DNA from: a virus
Length of the DNA stretch: 40,510 bases
Virus record (IMG/VR): IMGVR_UViG_3300040809_000936
Coordinates: 1 to 40,510 of that record
Reading direction: 5' to 3' (one strand)
Position numbers and translations under genes: made by a program
Shown: in pieces, positions 2,572 to 40,510 of the stretch
Position numbering within the stretch: position 1 is the first letter of the stretch
Layout of the letters: the number at the start of each line of letters is the position of its first letter
Notes under the pieces: model-generated
Told to the model about the DNA's origin: nothing
Database searches by the model: none
The model's input: only the letters and a program-made list of their open reading frames with translations

Positions 2572-3095
2572 ATAGATTAAAAAACCAAAGAGTTTACCTT
2601 GTTGGTGCTATGGACAGAGTTTCTGATAGAGGACAAGGATGGAGAGAGAATATAACTCCGTACCTTGAGAGTCTAGGAATTACTGTTTATAATCCACTCA
2701 AAAAGCCTACAGAACTTGGTAAAGAAAATGAGGATGCTTTTATTAAAAAGACTCATCTTAAAATAGGAAAGAATTACGATAAATTATCAGAAATGATGAG
2801 AACTGTTCGTAATGTAGATTTGAGACTTGTAGATATTAGCGATTTTATTATTGTTAATTTAGATCTAACAGTGCATCCTTGCGGAACATATGAAGAAATT
2901 TTTCTTGCCAACCGGCAGAAGAAACCTATAATAATTCATGTAGAGCAAGGCAAACAACAAACACCAGATTGGTTATTCGGATGTCTACCTCACCAGTTAT
3001 TTTTTAGTAGTTGGGATGAAATTAAAATTTACTTAAATAATATTAATACTTCTGATACTATTGAACACCTTAACCGATGGTACTTTTTTAACTAA
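2568..3095 (+). CDS. Nucleoside 2-deoxyribosyltransferase-like protein
   Basis: This 175-residue protein opens with VYLVGAMDR and contains VDISDFIIVNLD (88-99) and CGTYEEIFLA (105-114). These match the Rossmann-like nucleoside 2-deoxyribosyltransferase fold: an early glycine-rich strand, the D-x-I/V-V-x-N/D strand, and a GTxxE loop whose Glu (E110 by position) is the nucleophile. Members swap bases on deoxynucleosides or hydrolyse deoxynucleoside monophosphates. It could also be a related DUF4406-type protein of unknown reaction. It sits directly before GMP reductase with a 1-bp overlap, which suggests joint work on purine nucleotides. Confidence 0.65.
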   Translation: MNRLKNQRVYLVGAMDRVSDRGQGWRENITPYLESLGITVYNPLKKPTELGKENEDAFIKKTHLKIGKNYDKLSEMMRTVRNVDLRLVDISDFIIVNLDLTVHPCGTYEEIFLANRQKKPIIIHVEQGKQQTPDWLFGCLPHQLFFSSWDEIKIYLNNINTSDTIEHLNRWYFFN

Positions 3096-4213
3096 TGAGA
3101 ATCATAGAAGACAACAAGTTGGATTTTGACGATGTTCTCATTCAACCAAGAAGGTCTAAACTATTTTCACGGAAAGAAGTCGTAACCACGCGAGATTTTT
3201 ATTTTCCTAATGCTGACTCACAACTCAAAAAATGTTGTCCTTTAGTAGCAGCAAATATGGACACAACTGGTAGTTTTTATATGGCTAATACCATGTCTAA
3301 ACTCAATACTATGGTTTGTTTGCATAAACATTATAAGATAGAAGAGTATGTTAACTATTATAAGAATGATATATCTAGTAGTTCTAATTTTGTGTTTTAT
3401 TCTATCGGCACCTCTTCTAGTGATTTATCTAGGATGGATAAAGTTTTTGAAAAACTCAAAGCCTTTAGATGGCAACCACCAAACATTTGTGTAGATGTTG
3501 CAAATGGTTATTCTGAAAAGTTTATCAAAACTCTTATAAAAATAAGAGAAAAATATCCAAACAGCATTATTATGGCAGGCAACGTTGTTACGCCAGAAAT
3601 GACAGAACAACTTATAATGAAAGCTGGAGTAGATATTGTTAAAATAGGAATCGGTTCTGGTAGTGTTTGCACTACTCGTTTAAAAACTGGTGTTGGATAC
3701 CCACAATTAAGCGCTGTTATAGAATGTGCCGATGCAGCAAAACATTCTGGAGGATACATTTGCAGTGACGGAGGATGTAGAACTCCTGCTGATGTCTGTA
3801 AGGCGTTATGTGCTGGTGCTGATTTTGTAATGCTTGGCAGTATGCTTGCCGGAACAAATGAATGTGATGGAGAGTGGACTTATGAATTTTTAGCAGACAG
3901 TGGGGACTTAAAGTTTTGGCAACCTATAGACCCAGGATATGCAACAGAAAGACGTAAAGTTACATTGCAGTTTTATGGAATGAGTAGTAAAGAAGCACAA
4001 GATAAACATCATAACGGAGTAGCAGACTATAGAACTAGCGAAGGTCGTTGTATTCAAATTCCATATAAAGGACTCGCTGAAGATATTATAAAAGATATTT
4101 TAGGTGGAGTTAGAAGCTGTTGCACATACATTGGGGCAAATAAAATAGAAGATATGTCTCAAAAAACAATTTTTATCAAGGTTAAAAATACTCATAATAG
4201 GATATACGAATGA
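3095..4213 (+). CDS. guaC: GMP reductase (IMPDH/GMPR family)
   Basis: This 372-residue protein follows bacterial GMP reductase from end to end. It opens with DDVLIQPRRS, then has AANMDTTGSF (52-61), HKHY, VDVANGYSE (133-141), AGNVVTPEM, and the active-site loop GIGSGSVCTTRLKTGVGYP with C192 as the thioimidate cysteine. SDGGCRTP binds phosphate and ADYRTSEGR is the E-loop. The enzyme converts GMP to IMP and ammonia with NADPH. The fit is much better to GMPR than to IMP dehydrogenase, and no CBS domains are present. It is about 25 residues longer than E. coli GuaC, mostly an insert before QFYGMSS. All visible key residues are intact, so activity is expected. A phage-borne copy is unusual. Confidence 0.92.
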   Translation: MRIIEDNKLDFDDVLIQPRRSKLFSRKEVVTTRDFYFPNADSQLKKCCPLVAANMDTTGSFYMANTMSKLNTMVCLHKHYKIEEYVNYYKNDISSSSNFVFYSIGTSSSDLSRMDKVFEKLKAFRWQPPNICVDVANGYSEKFIKTLIKIREKYPNSIIMAGNVVTPEMTEQLIMKAGVDIVKIGIGSGSVCTTRLKTGVGYPQLSAVIECADAAKHSGGYICSDGGCRTPADVCKALCAGADFVMLGSMLAGTNECDGEWTYEFLADSGDLKFWQPIDPGYATERRKVTLQFYGMSSKEAQDKHHNGVADYRTSEGRCIQIPYKGLAEDIIKDILGGVRSCCTYIGANKIEDMSQKTIFIKVKNTHNRIYE

Positions 4214-5343
4214 AGAACTTAAACATGTTTTGCCCAATCAATACGACAGGCTATGGCATCACATCAAAAAATATAACAATAGAATTAAATAAATTGTTTA
4301 ATGTTTCATTATTTCCTATAGGTTCACATGTCAATATTGACACCGAACAAGAAAAAACAATTCTTTCAAAATGTTTATCAAATTCAAATACATATGATCC
4401 AACAGCCCCCTGCATAAAAATATGGCATCAACATGAATTAGCCTCTAGAATTGGTACTGGTAATTACTATGTCCTACCATTTTTTGAAGCAGACAAATTA
4501 CAAGACAGAGAAATACATCAAATAAACTGTGCTGATCATGTATTTACAGCCAGTAAATGGGGCAAAGAAACATTAGAAAAAAACAACATAACAAAGCCAA
4601 TCTCTGTAACACCATTGGGTGTTAATCTAGATATATTTCAACAACCACAGAAAATTAGAATAGACAATGGTAAATATGTATTTTTCCATATAGGAAAATG
4701 GGAAAAAAGAAAAGGTCAAGATGTATTAATAGAAGCTTTTAATAGGGCTTTTGAAAAAACAGATAATGTTGAATTAAGACTATTACCTCAAAATCCATTC
4801 TTAACAAAAGAAGAAGAAGAAGCATGGCATTCTCTTATTAAAAATTCTAAATTGTCAGATAAAATTAATGCATATAATAGATTGCCTACTCATTATCATT
4901 TAGCTCAATTTATATTTGAAGCAGATTGTGGTGTTTTTATGAGTAGAGCTGAAGGATGGAATAATGAAATACCAGAAGTAATGGCTATGAATAAGCCAGT
5001 TATTGCAACAAACTATTCTGCACACACAGAGTATTGTAATAAAGAAAATAGTTTCTTAATTGATATTTCTGAAACTGAACCAGCCATAGATAATAAATGG
5101 TTTTTTGGACATGGAAATTGGGCAAAAATTGGTGAAGAACAAATAGAACAAACTATTGAATACATGAGATATGTGTATAAGAATAATATCAAAACTAATT
5201 CTCATGGTTTGGAAACTGCTCAACAATTATCTTGGAAAAATACTGCTTCTATTATTTCTAATATTTTAACCTCTAATAAGAAAAGTGATAATGCCAATAC
5301 CACAAAAAAACGCGGACGAAAGCCAAAAAAAGTTTCTAGCTAG
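4210..5343 (+). CDS. Glycosyltransferase family 4-like (GT-B)
   Basis: This 377-residue protein is a GT-B enzyme. The N half has TGYGITSKNI and a donor/acceptor cleft. The C half has FFHIGKWEKRKGQDVLIEAF (the GT4 phosphate-loop strand) and SRAEGWNNEIPEVMAMNKPV, where the paired glutamates of the E-x7-E motif bind the sugar nucleotide. The last 12 residues are a basic, AT-hook-like tail (KKRGRKPKK), odd for a glycosyltransferase and lying in the stretch that overlaps the next gene. The ATG overlaps the guaC stop. Its acceptor (cell-surface glycan, virion protein or DNA base) is unknown. Confidence 0.85.
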   Translation: MKNLNMFCPINTTGYGITSKNITIELNKLFNVSLFPIGSHVNIDTEQEKTILSKCLSNSNTYDPTAPCIKIWHQHELASRIGTGNYYVLPFFEADKLQDREIHQINCADHVFTASKWGKETLEKNNITKPISVTPLGVNLDIFQQPQKIRIDNGKYVFFHIGKWEKRKGQDVLIEAFNRAFEKTDNVELRLLPQNPFLTKEEEEAWHSLIKNSKLSDKINAYNRLPTHYHLAQFIFEADCGVFMSRAEGWNNEIPEVMAMNKPVIATNYSAHTEYCNKENSFLIDISETEPAIDNKWFFGHGNWAKIGEEQIEQTIEYMRYVYKNNIKTNSHGLETAQQLSWKNTASIISNILTSNKKSDNANTTKKRGRKPKKVSS

Positions 5344-5923
5344 ATGTATGAGTAATACAAAAATGAATGAAGAATATCCAAATGAAACCCAAAGGTATGC
5401 TGTGTGTATGAATCAAACCAAATCAAGCCTACTTGAGCAGGTATGTGAGATTATCGAAGAGAATAGTTTAGGTTTTGAAGAAGATGAATTAACCCCCTTC
5501 AATTTTATTGTTCCTGAAGAAGATCAATATGTTGATTTTGAAGAAGAAACCGAAGAACTAGACTTTAATACAATCGCAGCTTTCATTTATAAAGATCCTA
5601 TTACTAATGAATTGTATTACTATCAAAGACAAGGTGTTTATACAAAGAATGGAAGAAATTTAGTTTTTGTTTCTAAAGCAGCTGAATATCAGGGTAAAAA
5701 AGTTACTCTTAACAAACCTTTTAGAACACCAGATGGACCTAAAAAGTTTAGCGTTTATGTTAAAAACGATAAAGGTAATGTGGTTAAGGTAAATTTTGGT
5801 GATCCTAACATGAAAATAAAAAAGAATATTCCAGAACGTCGTAAAAGTTTTAGAGCAAGACATAATTGCGATAATCCAGGACCAAAATGGAAAGCAAGAT
5901 ACTGGAGTTGTAAAGCTTGGTAG
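5291..5923 (+). CDS. Two-module conserved phage protein, possibly structural
   Basis: The protein has 210 residues from the ATG at 5291; a GTG at 5285 is possible but less likely. The N-terminal module (about 1-45) reads MPIPQKNADESQKKFLARCM and then EYPNETQRYAVC, a short Cys-containing motif found in many phage head or protease-associated proteins. The middle is acidic. The C-terminal module (about 130-210) contains VKVNFGDPNMKIK and RRKSFRARHNCDNPGPK and ends in WSCKAW. It is a basic conserved phage domain that I know only as a hypothetical family. The two modules are usually separate. It overlaps the glycosyltransferase gene by 53 bp. Confidence 0.65.
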   Translation: MPIPQKNADESQKKFLARCMSNTKMNEEYPNETQRYAVCMNQTKSSLLEQVCEIIEENSLGFEEDELTPFNFIVPEEDQYVDFEEETEELDFNTIAAFIYKDPITNELYYYQRQGVYTKNGRNLVFVSKAAEYQGKKVTLNKPFRTPDGPKKFSVYVKNDKGNVVKVNFGDPNMKIKKNIPERRKSFRARHNCDNPGPKWKARYWSCKAW

Positions 5924-6567
5924 AATTAAATACATTATTAAATTACAAAAAAATTACAGAACTAAAGTACTATACCGAAGTAACTGAAGTTCCAATGAGT
6001 AATCTTGTAGACTTTGACTACAAAGATATACTACCACCACCCCCAGAAAATAATAGTAAATTAGTACAGAAAGAACTTTCTATTATCTCTGAAGCAACAA
6101 AAAAAAGAACAAAACAAGACATAGAATTTGTTCATAAGATGGATCAAGATATAGACAGTTTTTACATAGAGCTACTCAATAAAAACAAAAAAATATATCC
6201 ACAAAGGTATATTAATTTGTTCTATGAAATAGTAGAGCCTATACTAATGAATACCAAAAACTATTGGAATAGACCTAGACCAAATCAATTGTGTAAATTT
6301 TACAATATTGACATAAATATGATCATCACAGACACTATCCACACTGCATCATATCCTTCTGGACATACGGTGTATAGTAAATTAGTTGGAAATATACTTA
6401 CTGATATGTATCCAGAATTAAGTAGTCAAATTCTTAGTATCGCTGAAAGAACAGGAAAAGCTAGAGTGCAACAAGGAGTTCATTATCCTAGTGATAATGG
6501 TGCTTCTTTTGTATTTAGTAATTATGTATACGATAAATTAAAAAATAGACTAAAACAATACAGTTAA
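5917..6567 (+). CDS. PAP2-superfamily phosphatase
   Basis: The three PAP2 signature blocks are present: KNYWNRPRP (KX6RP), SYPSGHT (PSGH) and ARVQQGVHYPSD (the SRX5HX3D block, with Ala replacing its first Ser). The conserved His residues of the last two blocks are the nucleophile and the proton donor. The layout without membrane helices resembles soluble class A acid phosphatases rather than lipid phosphatases. A TTG start at 5917 has a GGAG site at 5904-5907; an ATG at 5995 is an alternative. Substrates in this family include nucleoside monophosphates and lipid phosphates. Position just after the purine group hints at nucleotides, which is inference only. Confidence 0.85.
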   Translation: MVELNTLLNYKKITELKYYTEVTEVPMSNLVDFDYKDILPPPPENNSKLVQKELSIISEATKKRTKQDIEFVHKMDQDIDSFYIELLNKNKKIYPQRYINLFYEIVEPILMNTKNYWNRPRPNQLCKFYNIDINMIITDTIHTASYPSGHTVYSKLVGNILTDMYPELSSQILSIAERTGKARVQQGVHYPSDNGASFVFSNYVYDKLKNRLKQYS

Positions 6568-6581
6568 GGAATAAAATAACT

Positions 6582-8333
6582 ATGTGTGCTAAACAACATT
6601 TCGTTTACAAGATAAGCAATACTAACTTTAGAGTTATGCAGAACAATCTTTCTGTAAAACAAGAATTAACCTATCAGAATGTTGCTGATGGAACAACAAA
6701 TTCTTTGGCTTATGACAATAATAATTCAACTTTATTCTTTATTAAATCAGACTTAAAATTATATTACATACAATCTGGAGATACTGTGGCTACTGAAGTC
6801 TCTGGATTTACCTCTCCAACATATCAGCCAGGCAATGCGGCATACTATAATGGAGCAATATGGTATTTTGAATTTAATTCTAATGTTTTAGTTAAATTAA
6901 CATTATCTTATAGTCTAGGTGTTCCTTCTGTCGCAAGTAAAACTACTTACTCTGTTGGAAGTATGAGTTTACCAACAACAGGAACTGTTGGTGCAAACAC
7001 CAACACTTTTGGTGATATAACTATAGATAGTAATACTGGTACTTTGTATGCATATACAAGTAGAGGTCGTTTTTATTCTGTTGATCTGTCAAATCCTACA
7101 GCAGGATTTACTGAAATAGTTTCGTCTCCAGGAAATGATAGAACAGTAGGTCTTCAACTTGTATATAATGATTCTACAAATACTTTGTATGGACACAATC
7201 ATAAAACAGGCAATTGGTACACAATTAATACATCTACTGGAGCAAAAACAGACCTTTCTCTTAACACAGGATTATTTAGAGATTTAGCAGGAAACAGTAG
7301 CAGTGCCATGTATGGAAATGATGTAGACGGAAATATTTTTACGGTCAACATAACACAAAGCACTCCGACAACATTAGATCAATTCTTTCTACCTTCTGGA
7401 ACATTAACACTAGGAGCTAACAATTTTACTATAGGAGTACAAAGTATTAATCCAGACCAAAGGTATAGAATAGGAATACTTAATACAACATCAACCCCAT
7501 ATGTAAAAATAAATTGGGGTGATAAAACTTTGTCTAGTTTTGAAACCGAAGGTTATTATGAGCATGTTTACGAAGATTTAATAGCAGCAGACGTTCAAAT
7601 ACAAGGAGATTTAGGAGGAGGAGAACTAGTAATAGGAGGAAAACCAATACCTGTTTATACTACTGCTTGGGGTTCTGACTACCAAACATCTGAAATGACG
7701 AGAACTGCTGATAATATTTCTGGTTTAACTAATGTAAGCTCTGTAAAGTTTACAAACAATGTAAACTTAACAACTGTTCCTAGTGGTCTTTTTAATAATG
7801 TGGTATCGACTATAACAAATTTAGATAACGCTTTTGAAAATACTGGACTTACAGTTATTCCATCTGGGCTATTAACTAGCATGACAGGCGTAACATCGTA
7901 TGTCGCAACCTTTAGAGACTGTGATGACATAACAGCAGTCCCGATACCACTGCTAAATGTTCACACAGGAATTACAACAATGGCCAACTTTTTGGACTAT
8001 ACAGAAATCACTAATTATGATGCGTTTTTAGATTGGTTATATACTCAAGCCAATTCTATTAACCTACAAAATATTACATTAGGAGCATGTGGTAATACCA
8101 CTAGTAATTCTACAGGAGCAACAGCAAGATCAAACTTAATAAATAATTTAGGTTGGACTATTAACGATGGAAGTTGTGTAGGGGTTCCTCCAACAGCCAC
8201 TCCAGCAGTAACCCCAACAGCCACCCCAGCAGCAACCCCAACAGCCACCCCAGCAGCAACCCCAACAGCCACCCCAACTGGTAGCGGACCAACACCAACA
8301 GCAACAGGTGGATCAACACCTACGCCTTCGTAA
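6582..8333 (+). CDS. Large virion/surface protein: propeller-like module, LRR-like region, Pro-Thr tail
   Basis: This 583-residue protein has four parts. Residues about 35-270 form a beta-propeller-like module with repeated YDNNNSTLFFI and YNDSTNTLYGH type strands. Residues about 270-355 look PKD-like (VKINWGDKT). About 365-530 has BspA/DUF285-like leucine-rich spacing (NLTTVPSGLFNN, LTVIPSGLL). About 535-583 is a Thr-Pro-Ala repeat tail. The propeller module is shared with the C-terminus of the subtilase at 12874-15258. No signal peptide is visible, so it is most likely a virion-associated adhesin or decoration protein. A ribosome site AAGGA lies at 6566-6570. Confidence 0.7.
   Translation: MCAKQHFVYKISNTNFRVMQNNLSVKQELTYQNVADGTTNSLAYDNNNSTLFFIKSDLKLYYIQSGDTVATEVSGFTSPTYQPGNAAYYNGAIWYFEFNSNVLVKLTLSYSLGVPSVASKTTYSVGSMSLPTTGTVGANTNTFGDITIDSNTGTLYAYTSRGRFYSVDLSNPTAGFTEIVSSPGNDRTVGLQLVYNDSTNTLYGHNHKTGNWYTINTSTGAKTDLSLNTGLFRDLAGNSSSAMYGNDVDGNIFTVNITQSTPTTLDQFFLPSGTLTLGANNFTIGVQSINPDQRYRIGILNTTSTPYVKINWGDKTLSSFETEGYYEHVYEDLIAADVQIQGDLGGGELVIGGKPIPVYTTAWGSDYQTSEMTRTADNISGLTNVSSVKFTNNVNLTTVPSGLFNNVVSTITNLDNAFENTGLTVIPSGLLTSMTGVTSYVATFRDCDDITAVPIPLLNVHTGITTMANFLDYTEITNYDAFLDWLYTQANSINLQNITLGACGNTTSNSTGATARSNLINNLGWTINDGSCVGVPPTATPAVTPTATPAATPTATPAATPTATPTGSGPTPTATGGSTPTPS
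8190..8277 (+). repeat. 24-bp tandem repeat inside a coding region
   Basis: About 3.7 copies of a 24-bp unit begin at 8190, 8214, 8238 and 8262. Copies 2 and 3 are identical and copy 1 has two changes (T and T for C and C). Each unit encodes the octapeptide pattern T-A-T-P-A-A/V-T-P, so the reading frame is kept and copy number can change without a frameshift. It forms the flexible Pro-Thr-rich tail of the upstream surface protein. Confidence 0.9.
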
Positions 8334-10991: not shown

Positions 10992-11663
10992 ATGCATATA
11001 GATTTTGCTATTATAGATACTGATATTAATGAAAAACAAGCAAAAGAAAATTGTATACAGGCTATTGAATGTGGAGTTAATAGTATTACAGTTCCTTTCT
11101 ATCTTTTAAAAACATGTAAATATCTTATAGAAAAAACACAGACAGAACTGTCATGCTTTATAGATTTCCCTCTAGGTATCTCTGATATTAAAACAAGAAG
11201 TTACGCGGTAAGACAAGCTATTATTTATGGAGCTAATGTAATAGACATTAGTATGCCACAAAATTTGGCAGCAAATAGAAAATACGACAAAATAAGAGAT
11301 GACATAAAAAATATTAAAGACATATGTTCTGAAAAGAATATTAAAATCAGATATATTTTAGAATATAGATTATTTGATCATAGGTGTTTAAAAAAGATTT
11401 GTGAAATTTTTGACGTATTAGATATACAATACGCTTTCCCCTCTACCGGATTTTTTATTGATAACCTAGCAGATAACTTGATAGCAGGATCTTTCCTACA
11501 TCAAAACTCTAAGGAAATCAATATAATTTGCAGTGGTAATTTTTGGTTAGAAAAACATTTCAATATCGTAAACAAATCTGGAATTTATGGACTCAGATGT
11601 TTCTGTCCTAAAATTATTTGCAATTTTAAACAATTTTTAGCAAAACAGAAACAAGGTTATTAA
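10992..11663 (+). CDS. DeoC-like TIM-barrel protein lacking both catalytic lysines
   Basis: This 223-residue protein follows deoxyribose-phosphate aldolase (DERA) in outline. FIDFPLGISDIKTRSYAVRQ (56-75) matches the DERA 'GFPLG' region, and GANVIDI carries the Asp (D85). FPSTGF (149-154) stands where DERA has KTSTGF, and ICSGNF (179-184) stands where DERA has KASGGI. By this alignment the Schiff-base lysine is Phe149 and the second lysine is also gone, so classic aldolase chemistry is unlikely. It may bind a sugar phosphate, use another mechanism or be regulatory. It has its own ribosome site and lies between ClpP and a virion-like gene. Confidence 0.65.
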   Translation: MHIDFAIIDTDINEKQAKENCIQAIECGVNSITVPFYLLKTCKYLIEKTQTELSCFIDFPLGISDIKTRSYAVRQAIIYGANVIDISMPQNLAANRKYDKIRDDIKNIKDICSEKNIKIRYILEYRLFDHRCLKKICEIFDVLDIQYAFPSTGFFIDNLADNLIAGSFLHQNSKEINIICSGNFWLEKHFNIVNKSGIYGLRCFCPKIICNFKQFLAKQKQGY

Positions 11664-12325: not shown

Positions 12326-12664
12326 ATGATTTTTGCAGATGCTGACACAACTAATGTAGTTATAAACTTTTGGCAAAGTCTGGCTACAACAGTTTTAGGA
12401 ATTGTTGTTACATTAATTGGATTTTGGGCTACGGTTGTTAGGCATATGGCAACAAGACAAGAGGTTTGTGACTTAATTAAAAATAGTAGTCCATATACCA
12501 GAGATAGGCAATATATTATGGAAAGACTAGCTATTAATAAAGAAATGCAAGAAGAACTATCTAATGCTCTTAAACATAATTCAGAAGTTATGAACGACCT
12601 TAAGGTTCAGATAGCAATTTTAGCAAATACCTTAGGCTCTCTTGAATCTCGAATGGAGAAATAA
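12326..12664 (+). CDS. Single-pass membrane protein with coiled coil
   Basis: This 112-residue protein has one membrane helix at about 17-38 (ATTVLGIVVTLIGFW core). A long charged helical region then reaches the end, with heptad-like spacing at about 60-110. It resembles small phage proteins of the spanin or holin-accessory type in layout only. It is the first gene after the terminator, with GGAG at 12314-12317. Membrane location is well supported by composition; function is not. Confidence 0.6.
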   Translation: MIFADADTTNVVINFWQSLATTVLGIVVTLIGFWATVVRHMATRQEVCDLIKNSSPYTRDRQYIMERLAINKEMQEELSNALKHNSEVMNDLKVQIAILANTLGSLESRMEK

Positions 12665-12665
12665 T

Positions 12666-12872
12666 ATGGAAAATATTAAAATTGGCTTATACGATCAAAA
12701 CAAAATCTTTTTTAATCAAACCGCAAACAGATTTGCATCTGCCTCATATGCGGAAGCAAAAGACTATAATTCTCAACCAAGTTCTTTTTCTCAAAATGAT
12801 CAAATACTAGATACAGATGTCAATTGGGGTATCTTAAGAGTATGTCTTCCTAACAATCCTTTTGAGGACTAA
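12666..12872 (+). CDS. Small hypothetical protein
   Basis: The protein has 68 residues from the ATG at 12666, chosen because GGAGAA at 12655-12660 is well spaced; an upstream in-frame TTG at 12642 would add 8 residues. It is polar, rich in Asn, Gln and Ser, with NWGILRVCLPNNPFED at the C-terminus. There is no recognisable domain. It lies directly before the subtilase gene, whose ribosome site is inside its last codons, so it may be a virion partner of that protein. Confidence 0.55.
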   Translation: MENIKIGLYDQNKIFFNQTANRFASASYAEAKDYNSQPSSFSQNDQILDTDVNWGILRVCLPNNPFED

Positions 12873-12873
12873 G

Positions 12874-15258
12874 ATGAAAAGATACGACGTTATTTTGAAT
12901 AACATTAAAGATAAACAAGAATTCCTAGACGACATGCAAAATGTGTCTCATAAATCTAATATTCCACATAGAGATTGTGAGTGTTTCAAGAAAAGACCAA
13001 CTAGTAAAATTAGTACTTTTTATTTAAGTGATGAAGAAGCGATAGCTTTAAAAAAAGATGATAGAATAAAGTCTGTTGAAGTTTCATTGCTAGACGAGCC
13101 GCAAGCTATTATAGGGACAATGGATAGTATACCAGTACCCAATATAGTCGGTCCATTACCTCCACAAGATTCTACTCCTAGCGATGTTCTTAATACATCT
13201 TCTTCTATAAATTTTAATGCTATAGATGATGCTAATATAATTGTGGTTGATAGCAATGTAGATTTTGACCATCCAGAATTTGATAAAATAGTTTATCCTC
13301 CTCCCCTAAATAGAAACAGAACAGGTTCACGATTTTCTAGTAGAGGAGTTCCTATTAACTGGCACGCTTATGATTCTATAATTGGTGGATTTCATCGGTC
13401 TCCATATAATTATGGTGTTCATGCTGGTAGACAAGATGCTTATCATGGTACACATGTTGCTAGTACAATAGCTGGAAATATAAATGGTTGGGCTAAAAAT
13501 TCTAATATTTTCTTTAAGTCATTTTATGACTATAATGAGGGAGATTCTGTATCAGATTACATTCGAGCGTTTCATAATAATGGATTAATTAATGGTACTC
13601 TTAGCACTAATGACTTATCAAGATATCCAGATTTACTTCCTGTAAATGGTACATATAATAGAACAAAAGCTACCATCACTAATCATAGTTGGGGTCATTG
13701 GTATGACCTAAGAAATATACCGATTAATGCTATTCACACAGTAATTTATCGCGGTAATACTTTTACTAGACCTCTTAATGGATGGGATTGGAGATTTTTT
13801 TGGTGGACACTAAAAATGATTGTGAATATAGACGCACAAGGAAGAGATACTTTATGGTTTCTGCCATTTTTAAACAATGCTGTTGATACAGAAATCCAAG
13901 AAATGATAGACGATGGAATTATATGTGTAGCTGCTGCTGGAAACACATTCTCCTATGTTGCTTCACCCGAAGATCAAGATTGGAATAATCGTATTATATT
14001 TGATGGGGACACCCCCAATTTACCGTTGAATATTAGAATCAATGATAATACATTATTTATACATAGAGGATCTTCTCCTGCAAATTCTTCTATTTGTGTT
14101 GGATCAATAGCGCCAGGAGATAGGAAAAGTATATTTAGTCATTTTGGTCCAGGTATAGATATTTATGCTCCAGGATCAAATATTACTGGTGCCGTTAATT
14201 TAAATAGAGATACTTTTAATTTTGATACTGTTGGATACCCAAGATACCAAGAATACAATGACCTATCTCAAGAATATGGATTAGCAAAATTAAATGGAAC
14301 TAGCATGGCTTGTCCTCAAGTGTGTGGAGTATTGTCTCTAGTTGCAGCAAATTCTGGAGTAGTATCCAATCCAGCAGATTTTGATCAAACAGCGGCAGAA
14401 AACTGGCTAAATAATACTGGTTCTTTACCCACTATAAATGATCCAAGTCCTATAACAGAAGGTATGGATGCCGATACAAAATGGCAGTGTCTAGAAGGAT
14501 CTCCTAACAGATATTTATATTACCCGTATGCTACTACAGAATTATCTAATGATAAATCAAATGCTTTAGCATATGATTATGATAATGATATGTTGTTTTA
14601 TATAGATACAGATCTTAGAATGTATTATTATGATGTGTCTGATATAGAAAATATACCAAGTCCACAATTGTTGAGTGGTTTTCAATCACCAACAGCACAA
14701 CCAGGAAATGCCGCATATTGGAATAATGGAATATGGTATTTTGAGTATAATTCTAATATTTTAGTTAGACTAACATTGTCTTATACTAATAATGTACCAT
14801 CTATATCTGATATTAGAAAATGGTATGTTTTAAATATGAATTTACCAACAACAGGAACTGTTGGTAATAATACAAACACTTTTGGAGATATAACAATAAC
14901 AAGTGCTGGAAAACTTATTGCTTGTACTAGTAGAGGAAGAATGTATAGTATTAATATCCTTCCAAGATTTGTAGTAGGAAGAAGCATAGGTAGCTTTGCT
15001 GAAATAAAATCTTCAGAAGGAAATGATAAAAGCGTAGGACTACAATTATCTTGGAACGACAGAGATAAAGTATTGTATGGTCATAATTTCAAAACTGGTA
15101 ATTGGTATATTGTTAATGAAAATAATGGATCAAAAACATCTATCAATATAGCATCAGACAGAAAATATAGAGACCTAGCTGGCAATTCAAATATAGTGCA
15201 TGGTATTGACGAAAATGGAAATCTAGACATATTAAATATGCAATTTTTATTACCGTAA
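12874..15258 (+). CDS. Subtilisin-like serine protease (S8) with C-terminal propeller module
   Basis: The protein has 794 residues from the ATG at 12874 (GAGGA at 12864-12868). Residues 1 to about 75 look like an I9-type prodomain (YLSDEEAIALKKDDRIKSVE). The catalytic triad is D126 in VVDSNVDFDHPEF, H191 in HGTHVAST and S477 in NGTSMACPQ, with oxyanion N357 in AAAGN. Residues from about 549 to the end repeat the propeller-like module of the protein at 6582-8333. There is no signal peptide, so it is probably carried on the virion. Likely roles are cleavage of host surface proteins at entry or maturation of virion fibres. Large virion subtilases are known in T4-like marine phages. Confidence 0.9.
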   Translation: MKRYDVILNNIKDKQEFLDDMQNVSHKSNIPHRDCECFKKRPTSKISTFYLSDEEAIALKKDDRIKSVEVSLLDEPQAIIGTMDSIPVPNIVGPLPPQDSTPSDVLNTSSSINFNAIDDANIIVVDSNVDFDHPEFDKIVYPPPLNRNRTGSRFSSRGVPINWHAYDSIIGGFHRSPYNYGVHAGRQDAYHGTHVASTIAGNINGWAKNSNIFFKSFYDYNEGDSVSDYIRAFHNNGLINGTLSTNDLSRYPDLLPVNGTYNRTKATITNHSWGHWYDLRNIPINAIHTVIYRGNTFTRPLNGWDWRFFWWTLKMIVNIDAQGRDTLWFLPFLNNAVDTEIQEMIDDGIICVAAAGNTFSYVASPEDQDWNNRIIFDGDTPNLPLNIRINDNTLFIHRGSSPANSSICVGSIAPGDRKSIFSHFGPGIDIYAPGSNITGAVNLNRDTFNFDTVGYPRYQEYNDLSQEYGLAKLNGTSMACPQVCGVLSLVAANSGVVSNPADFDQTAAENWLNNTGSLPTINDPSPITEGMDADTKWQCLEGSPNRYLYYPYATTELSNDKSNALAYDYDNDMLFYIDTDLRMYYYDVSDIENIPSPQLLSGFQSPTAQPGNAAYWNNGIWYFEYNSNILVRLTLSYTNNVPSISDIRKWYVLNMNLPTTGTVGNNTNTFGDITITSAGKLIACTSRGRMYSINILPRFVVGRSIGSFAEIKSSEGNDKSVGLQLSWNDRDKVLYGHNFKTGNWYIVNENNGSKTSINIASDRKYRDLAGNSNIVHGIDENGNLDILNMQFLLP

Positions 15259-35427: not shown

Positions 35428-36446
35428 TAATAACATACCTTAGAAGCTCAAGCTACGGAACACACAATATGTGTGAACAACAATACTTTATTGAGTATAA
35501 CTTAGGCTTAAGATCTCCGTCTAATCAAAAAGCCGACAAAGGAACTATAGTTCATAAAGTTATGGAAATATTAGCAGATATTTCTGTGGCAGTATCTAAA
35601 GGTCAGCCAACTATTGAGGACGAGATCTGTGGTGAAATTAATGTATTTGATCATAATGTTGAAAAAATCACTGATCAAGTTTATGAATATTATACTAGTA
35701 GATTTATCCATCATCAATGGAAGCCATTAGATCTTAAACATTGCAAGAAATGGGTTGAAAAAACTATAACTGTGCAAAACTGTAATTTTGATCCTAGAAA
35801 TCAAAATATCATACAACCAGAACAAAGATTTGATATTGAAATTAAAAAACCTTGGGCTCACTATAAATATAGTGAAGACTTAGAAGGTTATTTAGCAATC
35901 AAAGGAACAATAGATCTGATTGCTCAACCTAACCCCAATACGATTGAGATTATTGATTACAAAACTGGCAAAAGGTTGGATTGGGCTACAGGAGAAGAAA
36001 AAACTTTCAAAAAACTGGAAAAAGATCCTCAACTCCGCATGTATCACTATGCGGCAAGTGTGCTGTATCCCGAAATAGAACATGTTATTGTTAGTATTTA
36101 TTTTATTAATGATGGCGGTATTTTTAGCATGAATTACAATAAGAGTCAGATTCATGAAACCGAAGACATGATTCGTAGAAAATTTCAAGAAATTAAAAGC
36201 TGTACCAGACCAAGATTGAACAAAACTTGGAAGTGTAGTAAATTGTGTCATTTTGGGAAAAATTATTTTCCAAATCCAGAGATTGAATATAGAGATGGTC
36301 AAAGAACACCTCACGGTCTTCCTATGACAATATGTGAAGAAATAAAATACAGTATAGACCTTTTGGGAATGAAAGGAACAGTTGACAAGTATCAGCAAGA
36401 AGGCTATAATGTTGGAAAGTACAAAGCGCCTGGAACCACAGAATGA
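35424..36446 (+). CDS. RecB/Cas4-like PD-(D/E)XK exonuclease with four cysteines
   Basis: This 340-residue protein has the RecB-nuclease order: SSYGTHNMCEQQYFIEYNLG at the start, KGTIVHKVME, IKGTIDLIAQ with D164, and IEIIDYKTG with D178 and K180, then QLRMYHYAA. One cysteine near the N-terminus (C17) and three late ones (C271, C275, C304) match the layout of the 4Fe-4S cluster in Cas4 and AddB nucleases. It likely resects DNA ends for recombination or degrades host DNA. It is coupled to the kinase and polymerase genes. Confidence 0.82.
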   Translation: MIITYLRSSSYGTHNMCEQQYFIEYNLGLRSPSNQKADKGTIVHKVMEILADISVAVSKGQPTIEDEICGEINVFDHNVEKITDQVYEYYTSRFIHHQWKPLDLKHCKKWVEKTITVQNCNFDPRNQNIIQPEQRFDIEIKKPWAHYKYSEDLEGYLAIKGTIDLIAQPNPNTIEIIDYKTGKRLDWATGEEKTFKKLEKDPQLRMYHYAASVLYPEIEHVIVSIYFINDGGIFSMNYNKSQIHETEDMIRRKFQEIKSCTRPRLNKTWKCSKLCHFGKNYFPNPEIEYRDGQRTPHGLPMTICEEIKYSIDLLGMKGTVDKYQQEGYNVGKYKAPGTTE

Positions 36447-38323
36447 AGAAATATATACCATTACATTGTCATAGTCATTACAGTCTATTAGATGGTTTAA
36501 GTCAACCTAAACATATTGCTAAAAGAATTAATTCTATTGAAGCCAATGCTTGTGCTTTGACAGATCATGGTAATATAGCTGGTCACGTTCAATTTCATAG
36601 CACAATGAAAAAGAATGGCATCAAACCTATTCTTGGTTGTGAACTTTATGTTTGTGAAGACGATCCTTCTATAAAAACTAAAGAAAATAGTTCATTGAGT
36701 CACATGCTTGTGCTTGCTAAAAATTATAATGGTTGGCTTAATCTTATTCAGCTTGTCAGTGAATCTAACAAACCAGATTTTTTCTACCATAAACCGAGGT
36801 TAGATCTTGAAACATTATCAAATTTCGTTAAAAACAATCTTATATGTATTACTGGTCATCTTGGCTCTACCCTTTCTAATGCAATTTGTAGAGACAATAA
36901 GATTATTAGTGACTATTCAAATATTGGAGTTGCCTATGTAGATAGGCTCAAAGAAGCATTTGGTAAGGAAAATGTTTTCTTAGAATCACAACTCATGGAC
37001 CAAGAAAATAATCCTATTCAAAAAGAACTTTCTGGTGCTATTGAGGAGATTGCCCATAAATGTGGAGTAAAAGTAATCTGTACTCCAGACGCACATTACG
37101 CTAATAGAGAAGATGCAGACGATCAGAGAATACTTCTCTGTAACAATCTTAAAACTACTATGCCTGAAATTAGCAGGAAATTAAGTGTGGGAGAAAAAGT
37201 TCCTGTAGAATGTTTCTTTTCTTCCAATAATTTTCACATACTGTCACAAGAAGAAATCAATGAGCTTCATAAAGAAGAACACATTGAAAATACTAATCTT
37301 GTAAATGAAATGATAGAAGATTATGAGATCAACAGCAAACCAAAGCTTCCTCCGTTTAATTGTCCAGAAAATTATGATCCAGACGAATACTTGCGTCAGT
37401 TATGTAGAGACGGATGGAAACAAAAAATACAAGGTAAAGTAGATGTTTCTTTACACGGAAGTTATACGGATAGGATTAAATACGAGCTTAAAATTCTGCA
37501 AGGAGCGGGACTTTCGAGCTACTTTCTAATTGTTCAGGATATTGTGAATCATGTCAAAGAAAACAAATGGTTGCCTGGACCCGGTAGAGGAAGTGCTGCT
37601 GGGTGTCTCGTATCGTACCTTGTCGGCATTACTAGCATTGATCCCATTAAGTATAGCCTGTTATTTGACAGGTTCTACAACGCTGGTCGTAATACTGCTG
37701 ACCACATATCTATGCCTGATATTGACGTTGATGTCCCTATTGACAAAAGAGAAGAAATCATAGAATACATCAAGAATAAATATGGAAATGACAAGGTTAG
37801 TCAGATGATTACCTTTAATACTATCAAAGGAAGAGGAGCATTAAAGGATGTTTTAAGAGCTTATGGGAATGTTAGTTTTGAAGAAATGAATAAAATTACA
37901 AAGAATATTCCAGATGAAGCTAAAATTGCAGACGAACTTCAACAAATGAAAGATGACACTGGAGAAGCGTCAATTATTAGATGGGCTTTAGAAAACAACC
38001 CAGAAAAACTTAAGGAGTGGTGCTATATTGACGATAAAAATATAATGCAAGGTCCTTTGTCAAAAAGGTTTGAGCAGGCTATTAGATTAGAAGGAACTAA
38101 GTCTAATCAAAGTAAACATGCTGCAGGAATTGCTATTGGTGCAAACCCTTTAAAAGAAGTTTGTCCTATGATTTATGATTCAAAAAATAAACAAATGATT
38201 GCCGGTATGGAAATGCAAGACTTAGAGAGTATTGGTGTTATAAAATTTGACATTTTGGGTATCGCAATGCTTGATAAAATTATGACAGTTCAACATTTAC
38301 TACAAGAAGGAGTTATACAATGA
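36443..38323 (+). CDS. dnaE: DNA polymerase III alpha-like protein, ending after the palm domain
   Basis: This 626-residue protein has a PHP domain (HCHSHYSLLDG, LTDHGN, TPDAHYANREDADDQ) with its metal ligands. The palm has GPGRGSAAGCLVSYL, PDIDVDV (425-431; D426 and D428 match the first catalytic pair) and VIKFDILGIAML (D603, the third aspartate). It stops 20 residues later, whereas bacterial DnaE continues for about 500 residues with fingers, HhH and OB domains. No continuation is present in this window. It may be half of a split polymerase or a shortened enzyme. An epsilon-like exonuclease lies close downstream. Confidence 0.9.
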   Translation: MKKYIPLHCHSHYSLLDGLSQPKHIAKRINSIEANACALTDHGNIAGHVQFHSTMKKNGIKPILGCELYVCEDDPSIKTKENSSLSHMLVLAKNYNGWLNLIQLVSESNKPDFFYHKPRLDLETLSNFVKNNLICITGHLGSTLSNAICRDNKIISDYSNIGVAYVDRLKEAFGKENVFLESQLMDQENNPIQKELSGAIEEIAHKCGVKVICTPDAHYANREDADDQRILLCNNLKTTMPEISRKLSVGEKVPVECFFSSNNFHILSQEEINELHKEEHIENTNLVNEMIEDYEINSKPKLPPFNCPENYDPDEYLRQLCRDGWKQKIQGKVDVSLHGSYTDRIKYELKILQGAGLSSYFLIVQDIVNHVKENKWLPGPGRGSAAGCLVSYLVGITSIDPIKYSLLFDRFYNAGRNTADHISMPDIDVDVPIDKREEIIEYIKNKYGNDKVSQMITFNTIKGRGALKDVLRAYGNVSFEEMNKITKNIPDEAKIADELQQMKDDTGEASIIRWALENNPEKLKEWCYIDDKNIMQGPLSKRFEQAIRLEGTKSNQSKHAAGIAIGANPLKEVCPMIYDSKNKQMIAGMEMQDLESIGVIKFDILGIAMLDKIMTVQHLLQEGVIQ

Positions 38324-38502
38324 CAAAAGTTACTTTTGACAAGGTTGCTATTGGTTCCACATTCACATATAAAAATGGAACATATGTAAAAACAGAGACT
38401 AGAAAAGTTAGTTGTTGTAAATTCAATAACGCTTACTCTACAACAGACAAGAACACAAGAATCGGAATCAGGCCTAATGAAGTAGTGGAGATTGCAGAGT
38501 GA
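38320..38502 (+). CDS. Small conserved phage-type protein (Cys pair, beta-rich)
   Basis: This 60-residue protein contains VAIGSTFTYKNGTYVKTETR and KVSCCKFNNAY and ends in NEVVEIAE. The same order occurs in the protein at 724-954, and similar short proteins are frequent in phages, function unknown. It lies between the truncated polymerase and the exonuclease, overlapping both by 4 bp. It is too short to supply missing polymerase domains. Confidence 0.65.
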   Translation: MTKVTFDKVAIGSTFTYKNGTYVKTETRKVSCCKFNNAYSTTDKNTRIGIRPNEVVEIAE

Positions 38503-39182
38503 ACTATAATAAAATTTGTGTGTTTGATTTTGAAACAGATGGAGTCAATCCAGAAAAATGTAGCCCAGTTCAATTAGCTGCTATAATGGTAGATCCTATC
38601 AATTTAGAAATCATTCCTAATTCTGAATTTAATTGTAACTTTAAACCAGAATGCATGGAAGAAGATCCAAACTTTGAGTATAAAACAGATATTTTAGATT
38701 TCCACGCTAAGGTTAAAGGATGTTCTAAAGATGATGTTTATAAAGAATGGCAAGAGTATCCTAAACAAAGCGTTGCTTGGAAAATGTTTGTTGACTATTT
38801 AGATAAGTATCATAGCAGAAACAGCAAAAAAAGCCAGTTCTCCGCTCCCATTGCTGCTGGCTATAATATCTATAGATTTGATCTTCCTATTATTGAAAGG
38901 CTTAGTCGGAAAAATAAGAATGTTAATAAGGAAGGAACTTCTAATATATTTTTCCCAAGAGATGTTATCGATAGTATTAATTTAGTTTATTATTGGTTTA
39001 GCCACAATAATGAATTGAAAAGTTTTAAATTAGATACGTTAAGAGATTATTTTGGTATTACAAAAGACGGCGCTCATGATGCCATCAAAGATGTTAGAGA
39101 TACAGCAGAAATTATAATTAGGTTTTTAAAGCTGCACAGAAATCTTGCGGAAAAAATTAAGTTTAAGGGATCTTTTAAATGA
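38499..39182 (+). CDS. dnaQ: DnaQ-like 3'-5' exonuclease (DEDDh)
   Basis: This 227-residue protein has all exonuclease motifs. Exo I is VFDFETDG with D10 and E12, Exo II is AGYNIYRFDLPII with D128, and Exo III is HDAIKDVRDT with H193 and D198. It probably proofreads for the Pol III-like protein upstream, like the epsilon subunit. The start is GTG at 38499 with GGAG at 38487-38490. A long insert (about 40-110) separates Exo I from Exo II. Confidence 0.9.
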   Translation: MNYNKICVFDFETDGVNPEKCSPVQLAAIMVDPINLEIIPNSEFNCNFKPECMEEDPNFEYKTDILDFHAKVKGCSKDDVYKEWQEYPKQSVAWKMFVDYLDKYHSRNSKKSQFSAPIAAGYNIYRFDLPIIERLSRKNKNVNKEGTSNIFFPRDVIDSINLVYYWFSHNNELKSFKLDTLRDYFGITKDGAHDAIKDVRDTAEIIIRFLKLHRNLAEKIKFKGSFK

Positions 39183-39601
39183 GTAAAAAACTTGTGGCAA
39201 AAACAATAGCAAGAACACTTGTATATCAAATCTTGCTATTATGGACTGGATTTTCTATTGGTTTTATGATTAATCCAGAATATTGGGGTAATCGTGCTCC
39301 AGTGGTTGAAAGATCTATACGGAATATTTTTTATCCTATTAAATATGATGAAAGAGTAAAAGAATTTTGTATTAACATTGGCAGATCTAGAGTATTTTTC
39401 TCTTTGCCGGAAGGAGCTAATAATTTCAAGATTATTAAAGATGATATGGTTGGTGAGGAACAATATATAGCGACTTATCAATATGTGTTAGACGGAGAAG
39501 CTATTTTAGTGAAAGATTTTACCTCTAAAATCAACTGGAAACCGTGGGAATTTGATTACCCAACCCCAGATGAATTGAAAGCGCAATTTCCTGAATCCTA
39601 A
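39179..39601 (+). CDS. Single-pass membrane protein
   Basis: This 140-residue protein has a membrane helix at about 13-32 (TLVYQILLLWTGFSIGFMIN) behind a basic N-terminus. A soluble domain of about 105 residues follows, rich in aromatic residues (INWKPWEFDYPTPDELKAQ near the end). It would be anchored with that domain either inside or outside. No family is recognised. It is the last gene of the replication operon and is followed by a 99-bp gap with its own promoter. Confidence 0.6.
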   Translation: MSKKLVAKTIARTLVYQILLLWTGFSIGFMINPEYWGNRAPVVERSIRNIFYPIKYDERVKEFCINIGRSRVFFSLPEGANNFKIIKDDMVGEEQYIATYQYVLDGEAILVKDFTSKINWKPWEFDYPTPDELKAQFPES

Positions 39602-39624
39602 CACAATTCTAACATAAAATCTGG

Positions 39625-39652
39625 TTGAATCTTCTTGCCGATTGAGTATTAT
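39625..39652 (+). promoter_or_regulatory. Candidate promoter of the DUF1559 gene
   Basis: TTGAAT (39625-39630) and TATTAT (39647-39652) are 16 bp apart. Start of transcription would be near 39659, about 40 bp before the ATG, and AAGGA (39689-39693) is the ribosome site. This gives the DUF1559 gene separate control from the replication operon. Confidence 0.6.
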
Positions 39653-39700
39653 ATGGTTAACAGGCTATTTTTTTACCCACCTAACATTAAAGGATTAATT

Positions 39701-40510
39701 ATGAAGAAAAAAGGTTTTACTCTCGTTGAACTATTGGTTGTTATTGCTATTATTGGTGTTCTTGTTGGTCTTCTTCTTCCAGCAGTACAATCCGCTAGAG
39801 AAGCCGCAAGACGAGCAAATTGCATGAGCAATATGCGTCAGTTTGGTTTGGCCGCACACAATGTGGAAAATAGCACTCAAAAGTTTCCAGCAGCATGTTG
39901 GACTATTGATACTATTGATCCATCTATAACCCCAATTGCTCCTTCAGATAATAGAGCAAGAACAGAGCGATCGTGGAGAGTTGATCTTTTATCATACATG
40001 GAAGAATCAGCACTAGCAGATACTTATGATAAGAATTTACATTGGTGGGAAGGTCCAAACCTTTTTGTAGCACAACAACAAGTCAAAGTATTTCAGTGTC
40101 CTTCTAATACTTACAATGGAGAAGAGTGGACTAATTTTCCAGACGGCCCATCAAGAGACAGTGACTCTACTGCACCAGCACTAAACACTGGTGTGCCTTT
40201 TGGCCGTACAGACTATGAAGTATTTACTGGAGTAAAGAATAAGGTTCTTGATCCAGATCCATATGCTAACAAGGGACCAGAAGCAGATGGTGCGTTGATT
40301 AAGGACCGTGTTACTACTATGGGTCAATTTAGAGATGGAACAAGCAAGACTTTTCTTGTAGCAGAATGTGCATCGAGACCAACTTGGGTTAAGGGTACTC
40401 CAGCACAGGTTGTTCCAGATGTTATTAATCAGTGTCTTGGTTGGGCAGATAGCCTTGGTCCATTTAAGCTTCATCCTATTGATGCTAATGGAGATAAAGG
40501 TGCTGCTAGA
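39701..40510 (+). CDS. DUF1559-family prepilin-like protein (3' end beyond window)
   Basis: The frame stays open for 270 residues to the window edge. The N-terminus [18 protein letters not shown] is a type IV prepilin signal: cleavage after G5, with Glu at mature position 5. It is followed by [20 protein letters not shown], the usual DUF1559 (SBP_bac_10) entry. [19 protein letters not shown] and the later [15 protein letters not shown] are also typical. These proteins are present in many copies in Planctomycetota and very rarely elsewhere; function is poorly known, probably secreted or pseudopilus-related. By rough hand count of single lines, GC is about 40-48% against about 30% just upstream, a sign of recent transfer or of a junction with host DNA. 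Confidence 0.9.

Follow-up and report, generated by a model that had tools for sequence, protein, structure and literature searches.

The stretch analysed here, referred to as the window, takes up an entire IMG/VR virus record of 40,510 bp and so has no further sequence to extend into; its ends are recorded as 'linear', so it is probably a fragment. Its last gene encodes a prepilin-type protein of the DUF1559 family and is preceded by genes for a UvsX-like RecA, DnaB, a primase, a dNMP kinase, a nuclease, the N-terminal half of DNA polymerase III alpha and an exonuclease (Table 1). These gene identities bear out the position directly behind a phage replication module that had been proposed from the sequence alone. 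The polymerase itself is split: some 4.5 kb separate the PHP/catalytic N-half (36443-38323) from a C-half with fingers, HHH and OB, found at 12406-14010 in the related contig L002. The split is conserved across the whole group, with no intein seen by eye, and in L006 (11859-14742) a 306-aa ORF breaks up the C-half still further. Three other genes of the window were noted by eye: an IMP dehydrogenase/GMP reductase-like gene (3095-4213) that adjoins glycosyltransferases and has a homologue in the relative G011; a 583-aa protein with N-terminal repeats and a TPTATPAA tail (6582-8333); and a subtilisin-like protease (12862-15258) fused to a region resembling the N-terminal repeats of that 583-aa protein.

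Table 1. Features at the right-hand end of the window (positions in the 40,510-bp record).
Feature	Position	Strand	Remarks
Split DNA polymerase III alpha, N-terminal half (PHP + alpha domain)	36443..38323	+	C-half beyond DUF1559 in relatives
RNase_T-type exonuclease, phage replication module	38499..39182	+	Profile match
Small membrane-protein-like gene, 140 aa, no family	39179..39601	+	Directly upstream of DUF1559; 96% identical in G002
CTAACACAATTCTAACA, direct repeat of 11-bp period, Pho-box-like putative operator	39598..39614	+	Overlaps the upstream gene's stop codon; ~100 bp before DUF1559
Sigma-70-like promoter TTGAAT-16-TATTAT	39625..39652	+	TGCCG just before the -10; conserved form TGCCG..GRGTATWATA
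Ribosome-binding site AAGGA	39690..39694	+	Read from the sequence
DUF1559 (PF07596) prepilin-type protein gene	39701..40510	+	ATG at 39701; 270 codons open to the contig end, which cuts the 3' end
Class III prepilin signal + hydrophobic alpha1-N	39701..39778	+	PF07963 at residues 2-26; predicted cleavage after Gly5

The encoded protein matches the Pfam families PF07596 (DUF1559; E=2.3e-35, 123.4 bits against a curated cut-off of 23.3) and PF07963 (N_methyl; E=3.6e-8), which confirms the prepilin signal and the DUF1559 assignment made earlier. The signal is of class III (G|F..E) and is followed by a hydrophobic helix; it is recognized by PF07963 in the window and by TIGR02532 in the window gene's orthologue, and the helix spans residues 8-59 of the predicted model. 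The copy in L002 (10001-10984) is 98% identical to the window gene and of full length (327 aa); it scores 142.2 bits against PF07596, a match that runs through to the last part of the family model. This orthologue also has HPGGMNVTRTDG, a candidate for the C-terminal H-X9-DG motif that is not listed for TIGR04294; the window copy is truncated. TIGR04294 itself is passed by L012 and L014. The predicted model (pLDDT 77) combines a pilin helix with a globular domain that has no solved counterpart. PDB pilins align with the N-terminus only: Foldseek found no known pilin fold for the globular domain, its matches being to the N-terminal ~60 residues of pilins and none reaching E<=0.001, and neither the PDB nor the viral structure libraries gave a match beyond the pilin helix. 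In L002 the gene is directly followed by one for a 90-aa secreted Arg/Cys-rich protein of no family (11186-11458), seen in this one phage.

Two accounts of the gene's place had been put forward, capture by the phage and a window that crosses a prophage-host boundary so that the gene is chromosomal. For a boundary speak the gene's position as the last on the contig and its GC content of 0.405, the highest among the window's ORFs (mean 0.323). Its GC3 is nevertheless phage-like (0.233 vs. 0.216 +/- 0.033), so the high GC is no sign of recent capture; the earlier observation of elevated GC stands, and we reject its use as a capture signal. The relatives decide the matter. We compared the window gene with its relatives on twelve further IMG/VR contigs, and in three of these (L002, L003, L006) the DUF1559 gene is internal and followed by ThyX, the C-half of polymerase III alpha and SSB, so that the proposed search for phage genes resuming to the right, run on related contigs, ended in phage genes and not in host chromosome. 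Phage nature follows from matches to a tape measure, tail-fibre, UvsX, primase, dNMP kinase and ribonucleotide reductase, the tail tape measure protein being present in G002, of the same contig group. The 171-kb relative G011 holds two DUF1559 genes, one of which overlaps its upstream neighbour's stop codon and sits between dNMP kinase and nuclease genes. Searches of these contigs for a terminase (PF03237) found nothing; those for the Gp23 capsid (PF07068) had no match anywhere and hence are uninformative. Moreover, the window holds no tRNA (tRNA and Rfam searches both came back empty), and host copies are 60-64% identical with a GC of 0.60-0.63. With the gene internal in relatives, a prophage edge is excluded as the general explanation, and a chromosomal location of the window copy is extremely improbable. 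The gene resides inside phage genomes.

Among viruses this arrangement is widespread. Searching with a back-translated DUF1559 motif retrieved 73 IMG/VR stretches with DUF1559. At 50% identity the viral loci sort into 9 groups, with 42 members in that of the window; GC is <=0.43 at all analysed loci but one. Nearly all of the loci have neighbour genes in common with the reference phages, and some of them lie on the reference contigs themselves. Most related virus contigs carry DUF1559 in single copy. No matching phage record was found in a protein search of INPHARED, and the literature searched makes no mention of DUF1559 together with phages. DUF1501 (PF07394) occurs on about 30 virus contigs of up to 178 kb (L102-L133, L004 10476-11786, L006 8617-9891), some of which hold DUF1559 too. 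In G011 (L012) a planctomycete cytochrome PSCyt1+DUF1549+DUF1553 protein adjoins DUF1501 and a 4Fe-4S ferredoxin (2902-5403, 5393-6694 and 6694-7074), and DUF1549 is also present in virus records G803 and G805.

The nearest cellular homologues come from Planctomycetota MAGs (L027-29, L028 being a Pirellulales MAG), each with one gene at 60-64% identity followed by a sharp drop in similarity. In a phylum-wide sample of 392 genomes, 1e-50 was passed by the centre genome itself only, and within its order 49 of 397 genomes pass 1e-45, the two samples thus having been scored at different thresholds. The 78-row tree, the placement that had been suggested as a check, nests the viral clades among planctomycete host genes: the window clade is sister to the Pirellulales hosts L061-63 (support 98/95), hosts L073/74 form the sister group of the L010/L012 viral clade (100/100), and the L014 type falls in a different host paralogue group. 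At least 6 host-virus label changes are forced on this tree, their exact number being uncertain because some rows are long-branched. The pilin-like gene has therefore been captured repeatedly from the host by large tailed phages, as one of the two original accounts had it, and the phage host is probably a planctomycete of the Pirellulales, in agreement with the sequence-only reading.

Once captured, the gene is maintained and passed between phages. Window-type copies show dN/dS values of 0.03-0.14, that is, purifying selection. In a comparison of the window with G003, identity is 37-62% for the core proteins but 94% for DUF1559 (dS 0.53); against G001 and G002 its dS is 0.31-0.35 while that of core genes is mostly >1.2 or saturated. 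Divergence so far below that of the core genes means that the gene moves between phages. Six of the 13 contigs with a close relative, the window included, end in the gene or within about 60 bp of it, as expected if assembly breaks at sequence common to several phages; this pattern is weak because several of those contigs are short.

The upstream region offers a clue to function. In PhoB-type Pho boxes, direct repeats of 7 bp are set apart by an AT-rich spacer of 4 bp, which gives an 11-bp period, and the CTAACACAATTCTAACA element therefore fits that architecture. Across eight aligned phage upstream regions the block is almost invariant and is followed by a TTG..16-17..TATWAT promoter. By itself the TTGAAT-16-TATTAT promoter is weak evidence (12 sites found vs. 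10.1 expected); it is conserved together with the upstream repeat in all 8 phages, which upholds the claim that the gene has its own promoter. Of 28 viral upstreams, 22 have a pair of YTAAYA half-sites (CTAACA-type) at period 11, and 0-3 have one at every other period from 6 to 22. The element occurs once in the window and, at <=1 mismatch, once per phage genome, at DUF1559, apart from two unrelated near-matches; five viral contigs with the exact 17-mer and no DUF1559 visible downstream were taken as chance. In phage genomes the composite promoter (repeat, TGCCG, GRGTATWATA) is found only at DUF1559, and it is common to the two main viral clades that the protein tree separates; phages may have exchanged the promoter, or the captures may have been fewer than the tree implies. 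Upstreams of the L146/L154 type also hold the repeat; it is absent from those of the L014, L144, L145, L150 and L189 types, so that a phosphate reading is limited to the main group plus the L146/L154 type. Phage DUF1501 genes were considered as part of the same regulon and rejected, having no element upstream.

Host genomes carry a repeat of the same kind. It was found at period 11 in 9 of 10 host DUF1559 orthologues, mostly as CTCAY-type repeats, three or four in number and spaced exactly 11 bp apart, and in 0 of 14 members of the sister host DUF1559 clade. Host pstS promoters have the pair at period 11 in 7 of 11 cases, with at most 1 at any other period; compare CTCACACAACGCTAACA at pstS in G013 (L251) with CTAACACAATTCTAACA in the phage. 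The phage gene thus has direct repeats of the 11-bp period seen in the hosts' own pst promoters, with half-sites that differ (CTAACA in the phage, mostly CTCAC in the hosts). When nine host genomes were scanned blind for three phased CTCAY, 13 sites came up vs. 0 in the control, and the majority are located upstream of genes for DUF1559 or prepilin-type proteins. In the hosts a phytase-like esterase gene (PF13449) comes next after the orthologue, a partner that is absent from the phages at the DUF1559 locus. Three phased CTCAY also stand near PATR-type secreted proteins in host genomes (L236, L242), suggesting further members of the host regulon.

The phasing may be read in another way. Spacing of 11 bp is general for the OmpR/PhoB regulator family, with similar phasing in its other members, and some host phased sites lie in PATR, RimK-type or sliding-clamp neighbourhoods and not at phosphate genes. 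The repeat could therefore bind another regulator of this family, e.g., an envelope-stress sensor, and the gene could serve envelope maintenance during infection independently of Pho. We hold this to be quite unlikely, as in 7 of the 11 genomes host pstS, a classic PhoB target, is preceded by the same phased half-sites, and the host partner gene is phytase-like. In favour of a PhoB reading, PhoR-PhoB is reported to be widespread in lacustrine Planctomycetes (PMC6461901); against it count the differing half-sites, the absence of the phytase-like partner from the phage locus and a published warning that Pho boxes predicted in phages are unreliable without binding assays (PMC10976474).

With a probability that we put at roughly 60%, the gene is a host-derived, Pho-regulated pseudopilin kept by planctomycete phages as a phosphate-stress auxiliary gene. 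The host prepilin peptidase would process its DUF1559 product, which would then become part of the host pilus or pseudopilus machinery or be anchored with it. When the infected cell is starved of phosphate, host PhoB~P would bind the repeat and switch on the phage copy, the phage promoter having kept a two-repeat version of the host element directly above a sigma-70 promoter. The phage copy may then keep organic-phosphate scavenging going at a surface or secretion step as host transcription declines, and the phosphate so gained would feed phage DNA synthesis. It had also been proposed that the gene changes the host surface or blocks superinfection; the pseudopilin would then jam or decorate host pili or the cell surface and exclude superinfecting phages, its phosphate-type promoter being inherited and incidental. 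In PHROGs, pilin-like phage families indeed come under moron/host takeover (phrog_3433). The gene passes from phage to phage and most contigs have one copy of it, both of which are common among exclusion genes, and several of its neighbours are surface-related (an FkbM methyltransferase in L002, DUF1501 in G001/G003/G005). A phosphate-type operator would however be unexpected on an exclusion gene, and this one has been retained with few mismatches in phages whose synonymous divergence is saturated. We found no specific evidence in support of a surface or superinfection role, the promoter pointing to phosphate stress instead, and regard it as unlikely.

Phosphate-stress genes of the kind favoured here have a close parallel in the pstS and phoA genes of cyanophages, which were captured more than once and exchanged between phages and for which host PhoB control was shown experimentally (PMC10976474). 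Like the window gene they are host-derived, have no fixed genomic place and carry a host phosphate-regulon element; unlike it, pstS encodes a phosphate-binding protein and not a pseudopilin-like one, the host phylum is another, and PhoB control, experimental there, is here deduced from the promoter. A phosphate-regulated pseudopilus machine such as we propose also has a precedent in the Hxc type II secretion system of Pseudomonas aeruginosa, which bears a pseudopilus and secretes alkaline phosphatase (PMC12872787); Hxc is a complete host secretion system rather than a phage gene, and sequence comparison with it is limited to the N-terminus. The phage pilin phrog_3433 shares a prepilin N-terminus in a phage, but matches over the N-terminal ~40 residues only (E=7e-7) and has no DUF1559 domain match. 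With the DUF1559/SBP_bac_10 paralogues of Planctomycetes (PF07596) the window gene has in common the full domain, the prepilin N-terminus and, in relatives, the H-X9-DG end; it differs in being phage-carried, in its phage codon composition and in being single-copy in most related virus contigs.

The uncharacterised DUF1559 family is huge in planctomycetes: Planctopirus limnophila has 68 paralogues, of which two are essential (PMC10632474). Tentatively, and with somewhat less confidence than in the reading above, we suggest that the captured orthologous group is a phosphate-acquisition pseudopilin, captured at least twice and kept under the host phosphate switch, and that it makes up a new class of phage phosphate-stress gene. 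Repeated capture of one orthologous group with a pstS-like promoter suggests a testable function, namely phosphate scavenging. If true, this would provide the first regulatory handle on a part of DUF1559, the largest planctomycete paralogue family, and would extend the cyanophage pstS principle to another phylum.
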